Notes under the pieces: model-generated
Database searches by the model: none
What the model was told of the DNA's origin: nothing
What the model saw: the letters and a program-made list of their open reading frames with translations, nothing else
Program-made: the position numbers and the translations under genes
Part shown: positions 38,588-40,946 of the stretch, piece by piece
How positions within the stretch are numbered: the first letter of the stretch is position 1
Layout: each line of letters opens with the position of its first letter
DNA from: Moorella humiferrea
GTDB lineage: Bacteria; Bacillota; DSM-521; Neomoorellales; Neomoorellaceae
Length of the DNA stretch: 64,000 bases
NCBI RefSeq assembly: GCF_039233145.1
Contig: NZ_CP136419.1
Location: 1,834,001-1,898,000, forward strand
Direction: 5' to 3'

Positions 38588-38929
38588 CTATACCCTGTAT
38601 TGGGGTATTCCGCCACCACCCTGAAGAGCCGTCCCCATCTGGACGCCTGCCATCCCGCCTTGCTGCAGTTGCATTTGTTCCTGCTGTAGGCGCTGTAGCA
38701 GCTGGGCTATCTCCTGCTGGCTGGCCATATTTAATTGATACCATCCCCGGGAATGCATAACATCCCATACAGCCTTAAGGCAGTTCTGCTCATCCTGGTA
38801 AACGGTCATAAAATCCCGCCGCAATTGATCGTTGGCGCATTCAGTAATGGCCATATTATATGAGCTGGTTAAAAGCTTTTCGCTGGCCAGGCAATCGCTG
38901 CAGATTGTTTTATCATCAAAAAACTGCAT
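38588..38929 (-). CDS. CotF-family spore coat protein
   Basis: 113 residues. DKTICSDCLASEKLLTSSYN, then LRRDFMTVYQDEQNCLKAVW and MHSRGWYQLNMA is the four-helix CotF pattern, followed by a Gln/Met/Gly-rich tail typical of coat proteins. It is deposited on the spore or in the mother cell (family knowledge). It follows a smaller related gene 13 bases upstream, forming a two-gene unit with a terminator. Confidence 0.85.
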   Translation of the reverse strand: MQFFDDKTICSDCLASEKLLTSSYNMAITECANDQLRRDFMTVYQDEQNCLKAVWDVMHSRGWYQLNMASQQEIAQLLQRLQQEQMQLQQGGMAGVQMGTALQGGGGIPQYRV

Positions 38930-38942
38930 GGTCCTTCCCCCT

Positions 38943-39143
38943 CTACATCATATGTTGCCCACCCAAATGACGGAGCAAAGTATTATAGTGCCTCTGGTGG
39001 GCCTGCTGCACTGAACTCAACACCTGCTTCAGCTGGGGGTCGCTGCACTGGGCGGCGTAGGCCCCGAATTTCCGGATCATCAAGAGCTCATTGCTTAAAT
39101 TTTCCCGGAGCTGCATCAATTCAGCCTGGGTTAGACCTGCCAC
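38943..39143 (-). CDS. Small CotF-related spore coat protein
   Basis: 66 residues. I choose GTG 39143 because AAGGAGG lies 7 bases upstream; an upstream GTG at 39161 would place the ribosome site within the gene. LTQAELMQLRENLSNELLM, then CSDPQLKQVLSSVQQAHQRH, has the helical CotF-like form with conserved His/Gln. It is likely cotranscribed with the coat gene at 38588. Confidence 0.75.
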   Translation of the reverse strand: MAGLTQAELMQLRENLSNELLMIRKFGAYAAQCSDPQLKQVLSSVQQAHQRHYNTLLRHLGGQHMM

Positions 39144-39237
39144 GATGCTTCCTCCTTCCACAAATTAAAGCTGCCATGGATCATTTTGCCCAGAGGCCCA
39201 CCTTCTATTCACCATATTTTCTGCCAATAAAAACCAT

Positions 39238-39254
39238 GCCGGGAAACTCCCGGC
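39238..39254 (-). terminator. Hairpin just after the glutaredoxin stop
   Basis: GCCGGG-AGTTT-CCCGGC on the minus strand starts one base after the final TGA and is followed, after ATGG, by TTTTTATT. Most likely the terminator. Confidence 0.6.
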
Positions 39255-39255
39255 G

Positions 39256-39492
39256 TCAGTGCAAGACTTTTTTTAAACGGTTTTCATCAAAGCCGACTAT
39301 AACCTGTCCATCGACGATCAGGGTGGGAACCGCCGCCAGACCGCCGTTACGCCGGCACAATTCTTCCATGGCCTTTTCGTCTACACTGATATCCTTTTCT
39401 TCAAAATTTACACCATGTCGTGAAAGATACTCTTTCACCGCTTTGCAACTGGGTCAGGTCGGTGTAGTGTAAACAACGACGTTTTCGGGCAT
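39256..39492 (-). CDS. Selenocysteine-containing glutaredoxin-family protein (UGA at codon 13)
   Basis: 78 codons from ATG 39492 (GGGAGG 8 bases upstream) to TGA 39258-39256, with one in-frame TGA at 39456-39454. Read through, the protein is MPENVVVYTTPT-U-PSCKAV: the TGA stands exactly at the first position of the glutaredoxin CxxC site, here UxxC. The downstream part (GVNFEEKDISVDEKAMEEL, then VPTLIVDGQVIVGFDE with the cis-proline) is a complete NrdH/glutaredoxin-like fold. An ordinary start downstream of the TGA would lack the active site. It may reduce disulfides or peroxides. The final stop is also TGA, directly before a hairpin. A short stem follows the internal UGA, as needed for a bacterial SECIS. 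Confidence 0.85.
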
Positions 39493-39557
39493 CAGATTAA
39501 CCTCCCGGCAGACTTTTTTACTTAGTCTGCCTGGAAGGAGAAAGCTTTATGTGCGTT

Positions 39558-40946
39558 CTAGCGTTTTAAAAGGGAACCCAGGACGGTTTTGGCGCTGCTT
39601 AAAGTAACGCCTATAAAACCGTAACCGCTTAGAATGGATTCCAAAGCCGTCAGCACCTGCTGCATCTCTTCTTCGGTAACGATTAAAGGCGGCTCTAAAC
39701 GGATGACATTGGGATTATTTAGAGTATACGCCGTGATAATATGGTGTTTATTCATTAACTCTCCGGCTACCAGGGAACCAAAATATTCTCCCGCCAGCGC
39801 ATTTACCTTACCGCGTGTTAACCTGTCCAGCCATCCGCCCACAGGTTGGTTAAATTCCAGGCCGATGAGGAGGCCCCGGCCGCGCACGTCTTTTATGATA
39901 GTATATTTTCCTTTAAGCCGCCGCAGCTTTTCTAAAAAGAAGCTACCCAGGGCGGCCGCCCGTTTCGCCAGGTCTTTTTCCAGAATGCTTTCCAGGGCCG
40001 CCAGCCCGGCCGCCACCGCCAGGGTATTGCCACCAAAGGTGGAAGTATGGAGGAGGGCTTTATCCATGCCGCCGTAGGCTTTATCCCAGATGACCGGACG
40101 GGCGATGTAAGCGCCGATGGGCATGACACCGCCACCCAGGGATTTGGCCAGACACATGATGTCCGGCACTACGTCTTCATACTCGCAGGCAAAAAGACGA
40201 CCCGTACGCCCGAAACCCGTTTGAATCTCGTCGACAATCAACAATGCCCCGTAACGATCACATAGTTCCCGCGCACCTTTGAGATAGCCGTCGCGGGGAA
40301 CAATCACACCGCCTTCGCCCTGGATGGGTTCTACGATAAAGGCGGCCACATCGCCCCCCGCCAGTTTGGCTTCCAGGGCCTCCAGATCGTCGTAGGGCAC
40401 CGCCTCGCAACCGGGTAACAGGGGGGTGAAGGGGCGCTGGTATTTCTCCCTTCCCGTGACCGATAGAGAACCAAAACTTTTACCGTGGAAAGAATTTTGG
40501 CAGTAAAGGATTTTAACTTTACCGGTGGCGGCGCGTGCCAGTTTGAGGGCGCCCTCCACCGCTTCAGTCCCGCTGTTGCAAAAAAATACCCGTTCCAGAT
40601 CCCCGGGAGTAACCCGGGCCAGGTTGTGGGCCAGGGCGGCGGCCAGGGGATTTAAAGAGGCCTGCAGTATATTCGGCCGTTCCATCACCTTCTTTACCGC
40701 ATCCAGCACTTCGGGCGGGTTATGACCCAGATTTAAAGCTCCGTAGCCGCCTAGAAAGTCAAGATAGCGATTGCCCTCCCTGTCCCATACGGCAACGCCT
40801 TCTGCCCGAATAAAGGCTTTATCAAAATCCAGCAGGGACAGCATACCCGCCAGGCCGGGATTGACATGGCGGCGGTACAAGTCCCGAACCTCCTGGCGGG
40901 AAAACTCCATTGCTTCTGCCAAGCTAAATAATTTTTCTACACCCAA
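39558..40946 (-). CDS. Class III aminotransferase (putrescine/ornithine type)
   Basis: 462-residue PLP enzyme. NSGTEAVEGALKLARAATGK, SFHGKSFGSLSVTG, IVDEIQTGFGRTGRLFACE and the lysine block MCLAKSLGGGVMPIGAYI are those of PatA-like putrescine and ornithine aminotransferases. The C-terminus extends beyond the usual fold (GYGFIGVTLSSAKTVLGSLL). It probably transfers the terminal amino group of putrescine or another diamine to 2-oxoglutarate. speE and speB lie 12 kb away; no adjacent catabolic partner. Confidence 0.88.
   Translation of the reverse strand: MGVEKLFSLAEAMEFSRQEVRDLYRRHVNPGLAGMLSLLDFDKAFIRAEGVAVWDREGNRYLDFLGGYGALNLGHNPPEVLDAVKKVMERPNILQASLNPLAAALAHNLARVTPGDLERVFFCNSGTEAVEGALKLARAATGKVKILYCQNSFHGKSFGSLSVTGREKYQRPFTPLLPGCEAVPYDDLEALEAKLAGGDVAAFIVEPIQGEGGVIVPRDGYLKGARELCDRYGALLIVDEIQTGFGRTGRLFACEYEDVVPDIMCLAKSLGGGVMPIGAYIARPVIWDKAYGGMDKALLHTSTFGGNTLAVAAGLAALESILEKDLAKRAAALGSFFLEKLRRLKGKYTIIKDVRGRGLLIGLEFNQPVGGWLDRLTRGKVNALAGEYFGSLVAGELMNKHHIITAYTLNNPNVIRLEPPLIVTEEEMQQVLTALESILSGYGFIGVTLSSAKTVLGSLLKR

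Follow-up and report, generated by a model that had tools for sequence, protein, structure and literature searches.

The window analysed here, a 64,000-nucleotide stretch of a Moorella genome assembled as a single 2.67 Mb contig, includes a gene whose product is almost certainly a glutaredoxin of the YruB/UXX-star type that carries selenocysteine (Sec, U) where the CxxC active site has its attacking cysteine, with SECIS/SelB-directed incorporation at the UGA of codon 13 and termination at a second UGA. The gene, the conserved TGA, the constraint on the SECIS region and the Sec machinery were read directly from the DNA. Sec at the first active-site cysteine had been the central claim of an earlier, sequence-only reading of this stretch, and it is now strongly supported by the conservation of the TGA, the SECIS and the presence of the Sec machinery. 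The features are listed in Table 1.

Table 1. Features of the Sec glutaredoxin gene and its flanks (positions within the window)
Feature	Position	Strand	Basis or remarks
Sec glutaredoxin gene, UxxC active site, 78 residues (predicted)	39256..39492	minus	ATG at 39492; profile matches and conserved TGA
In-frame TGA, codon 13, predicted to be read as Sec	39454..39456	minus	TGA in 24 genomes; TGC/TGT in farther homologues
SECIS-type hairpin, GGUGAAAG-AGUAU-CUUUCAC	39420..39439	minus	G at loop position 2; apical loop 22 nt past the UGA
Terminal TGA, ordinary stop	39256..39258	minus	TAA or TAG instead in 17/24 Sec orthologues
Intrinsic-terminator-like hairpin, then ATGGTTTTTA	39238..39254	minus	GC-rich
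Leader hairpin, ribosome site GGGAGG paired with CUUCC, loop AGACUAAGNAAAAAA conserved in Moorella	39501..39537	minus	Folding and alignment

Translation from 39492 to 39256 on the minus strand, with TGA as U, gave MPENVVVYTTPT-U-PSCKAVKEYLSRHGVNFEEKDISVDEKAMEELCRRNGGLAAVPTLIVDGQVIVGFDENRLKKVLH followed by the terminal TGA, and the active-site motif around codon 13 was TPT-U-PSC. The sequence-only reading had named no strand; its placement of the TGA at the first Cys of CxxC (YTTPT-U-PSC) was confirmed on the minus strand, and the good ribosome site that it saw before the ATG was found there as GGGAGG. It had also described glutaredoxin-like flanks in one frame. The Pfam Glutaredoxin model (PF00462) matched residues 5–65, across the TGA, at 8.7e-18 (64.7 bits against a cut-off of 22.9), U being given as C in this and the other profile searches of the protein. 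The glutaredoxin-type motifs were all present on direct reading of the translation, namely UPSC, the cis-Pro motif AVPT and VGFDE (the GF/GG motif). Among the NCBIfam models, GlrX_YruB (TIGR02196) scored highest, and the top match to it in the genome was this same gene, but at 85.9 bits the protein (U as C) fell narrowly below the cut-off of 88.55, whereas the Uxx_star subfamily model (NF041212) was passed with 68.6 bits (cut-off 66). Scores for UXX-star families 1, 2 and 3 were below each cut-off; family 1 is listed as UxxT, whereas in the window protein the second Cys is retained (UxxC). Among solved structures, the closest in sequence were 7c10/7c12, named Glutaredoxin (E 2.1e-17). The named relative, Moorella sulfitireducens, showed 81% identity, and the orthologue in another Moorella genome (G005) was 72% identical.

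A set of 61 genomes, which includes 11 of the genus as well as relatives from the family, order and phylum, was searched for the gene. It was found in 11/11 genus genomes and also in family, order and phylum relatives. In 24 of the 61 genomes (the host and 23 others) TGA was present at the same aligned codon with conserved flanks, and more distant homologues had TGC or TGT at that position. The sequence-only reading had proposed a search for selA, selB and selC, and the host genome contains SelA (617 bits) adjoining SelB (378 bits), a tRNA-Sec with a UCA anticodon, and also SelD (408 bits). A second match of the tRNA-Sec model above its cut-off was a tRNA-Ser. Across the comparison set, SelA was above cut-off in 23/24 genomes with the Sec form, the exception being a genome that is only 58% complete, and in none of the four best Cys-only genomes (G040, G042, G046, G049). 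The association of SelA with the Sec form has a hypergeometric p of about 2e-4, computed without correction for phylogeny. As a separate observation, the host selD gene (locus L018, G000:C1:1711002–1711928, minus strand) itself contains one in-frame TGA (SCSSGUAAKVG), like other selenoprotein SelD.

The region downstream of the TGA, where a SECIS prediction had been suggested, was compared with the published bSECIS model, which has a 3–9 nt loop, a 4–16 bp stem, a spacing of 16–37 nt and an MFE of at most -7.5, and also requires a G within the first two loop positions (PMC13188914). The hairpin in the window agrees with this model, having a 5-nt loop AGUAU (G then U), a 7-bp stem GUGAAAG:CUUUCAC, a spacing of 22 nt and a folding energy of -8.7 to -9.1 kcal/mol. 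Compared with shuffles, the fold of this stretch in the host genome alone was unremarkable (z -1.35, or -0.34 for a longer stretch), so the case for the SECIS rests on conservation, and it was evaluated using a synonymous-site test, single-sequence folding being uninformative here. Among the 23 distinct Sec forms, the same codon was used for identical residues at a fraction of 0.90 in codons +5 to +11 and 0.46 elsewhere. Frozen codons in the stretch include GAG (23/23), Leu CTT (23/23) and Val GTG (22/22). Because these synonymous codons are frozen in the Sec forms and the Cys forms do not retain the SECIS sequence, the stretch after the TGA is, on this comparison, under selection as RNA. Most relatives have the serine codon TCC and a bulged U of GGU. 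The host has TCA instead, and the usually bulged U can therefore pair with A, a departure common to 4/23 distinct Sec forms.

Misincorporation of Trp or Cys at the TGA, or general readthrough, in place of Sec insertion is very improbable given that the genome encodes the full Sec machinery, that the synonymous sites are under SECIS constraint and that Cys takes the place of Sec in genomes without SelA. Alternatively, the TGA might have arisen from a TGC or TGT Cys codon through an error in sequencing or a mutation in a pseudogene, since in a single genome one TGC-to-TGA change would look alike and distant homologues do carry TGC or TGT. The chance of this is vanishingly small, as TGA is found at one codon in 24 genomes with the frames intact on both sides, and the synonymous sites are frozen in the SECIS. 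A sequencing error at the TGA, on which the sequence-only reading would have abandoned its claim, is thus excluded by the 23 other genomes. A true start after the TGA, at the GTG at 39438, would make the upstream similarity a relic. A table-11 ORF of this extent does exist, but the reading is exceedingly unlikely: every Moorella orthologue has the residues ahead of the TGA conserved and retains the ATG and ribosome site, and in this part of the gene synonymous sites change freely whereas the amino acids are constrained, which points to purifying selection on the protein. Sec at codon 13 is the reading adopted here.

The sequence-only reading had also noted that the final stop is a TGA with a hairpin one base on, and this is correct: a GC-rich hairpin begins one base after the TGA at 39258–39256. 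Its further point that recoding must discriminate the two TGA codons is true but does not make the gene special, as only the first is followed at the proper distance by a conserved SECIS. The terminal TGA was considered as a second Sec codon and rejected. In addition to the alternative stops in the Sec orthologues, most Moorella have a GC-rich hairpin and T-rich tail behind the stop, whichever stop codon is used, and the hairpin is therefore read as a terminator. The terminal TGA is a stop with a terminator, and no dual recoding is needed.

On the other side of the gene, the ribosome site lies within a leader hairpin that was present in 11/11 Moorella genomes searched and was strong only at the Sec glutaredoxin gene. 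For ten distinct Moorella leaders and that of G011, folding z-scores ranged from -1.8 to -4.8 and the ribosome site was paired with a probability of 0.73–1.0. In several species the fold would cover the start codon too. The loop letters AGACUAA and AAAAA were invariant across nine aligned Moorella leaders. A covariance model built from those nine sequences detected a single strong copy in each Moorella genome, in every case ahead of the Sec glutaredoxin gene (E 3e-14 or better), and no other copy near that score in the Moorella genomes searched. Sequences from most of these genomes went into the model, so what counts is the lack of further copies, not the hits themselves. The next match in the host genome (E 6e-4) was at an intergenic, terminator-like spot. 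The leader was also considered as a motif shared with other genes, and this was rejected: the strong copies are all at this gene, and the matches before another gene in G002, G003 and G009 have a different loop. A second gene, starting AUGUUUUAUACCAGC, likewise has its ribosome site concealed in several Moorella genomes, there by a different hairpin, CCUUCCCGGCUGAAUAAGCAUGUUAUAAGCCGGGAGG (loci L098, L099 and L100 in G003, G002 and G009, respectively).

In a search of Rfam the leader matched no family, the best chance match (E 0.69) being located elsewhere than the leader. Covariation in the leader was not significant; there was one compensatory pair in the nine sequences, a level reached in 114/500 shuffles. 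With only one compensatory change in the stem, support for the structure comes from energy and conservation instead of covariation. No match to a sigma-70-type promoter was found before the glutaredoxin gene, and in the literature we found no description of a leader hairpin hiding the ribosome site. We tentatively raise the possibility, which we consider somewhat doubtful, that the leader is an undescribed Moorella-specific cis-regulatory RNA with a conserved AGACUAAGNAAAAAA loop, which would switch translation of the Sec glutaredoxin in response to a ligand, a protein, or redox or selenium state.

From the comparisons above we infer the incorporation of Sec itself, as well as the catalytic mechanism, reductant and substrate. 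SelB would bind the hairpin within the coding sequence and supply the codon-13 UGA with Sec-tRNA(Sec), while the second UGA, with no hairpin at the right distance, would lead to termination. In the protein, the selenolate would attack oxidised substrates such as disulfides, and the resulting mixed selenenylsulfide would be resolved by Cys16. No match to glutamate-cysteine ligase was found in the host genome, so the reductant may be something other than glutathione, though this search covered one ligase family and its absence is still compatible with glutathione uptake. Judging from gene content, the protein is probably reduced in the cell by a thiol system, of the thioredoxin-reductase type or another, and not by glutathione. 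The gene order class-III aminotransferase, Sec glutaredoxin, 72-residue protein, Coat F protein (38588–40946, minus strand), in which the gene upstream of the glutaredoxin is the aminotransferase, was kept across the Moorella genomes and also in further genera and families of the order. The conserved neighbourhood with a Coat F protein suggests a possible link to sporulation.

Glutaredoxin is one of the six selenoproteins listed for Moorella thermoacetica, and a selenoprotein glutaredoxin is also listed for Geobacter sulfurreducens and Alkaliphilus metalliredigenes (Zhang et al. 2006; PMC1794560). Two reviews count the UxxC glutaredoxins (Grx) among the established selenoprotein families. The M. 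thermoacetica protein and the one found here share the Glutaredoxin domain, Sec in place of the first Cys and the genus; the host is probably a different Moorella species, and the two were compared by description. As cited in PMC9312934 and PMC13188914, Kim et al. 2011 reported that the selenoprotein glutaredoxin of Clostridium sp. OhILAs (C. oremlandii) can reduce a methionine sulfoxide reductase that is itself a selenoprotein. It too is a UxxC glutaredoxin from an anaerobic Firmicute. As the UxxC glutaredoxin family and a Moorella case are already published, the Sec glutaredoxin call is correct and well supported but not new, being of a kind known since 2006, including in the same genus.

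The gene is mainly an annotation issue. The sequence-only reading had predicted that standard gene calling would start after the TGA and lose the active site, and the longest table-11 ORF in the frame is indeed a 60-residue fragment from a GTG start (39438–39256) without it. The orthologue set also provides a clean example of a SECIS constraining codons within a gene. Should the leader hairpin prove to be a real switch, this would be a selenoprotein gene controlled at both initiation and recoding.
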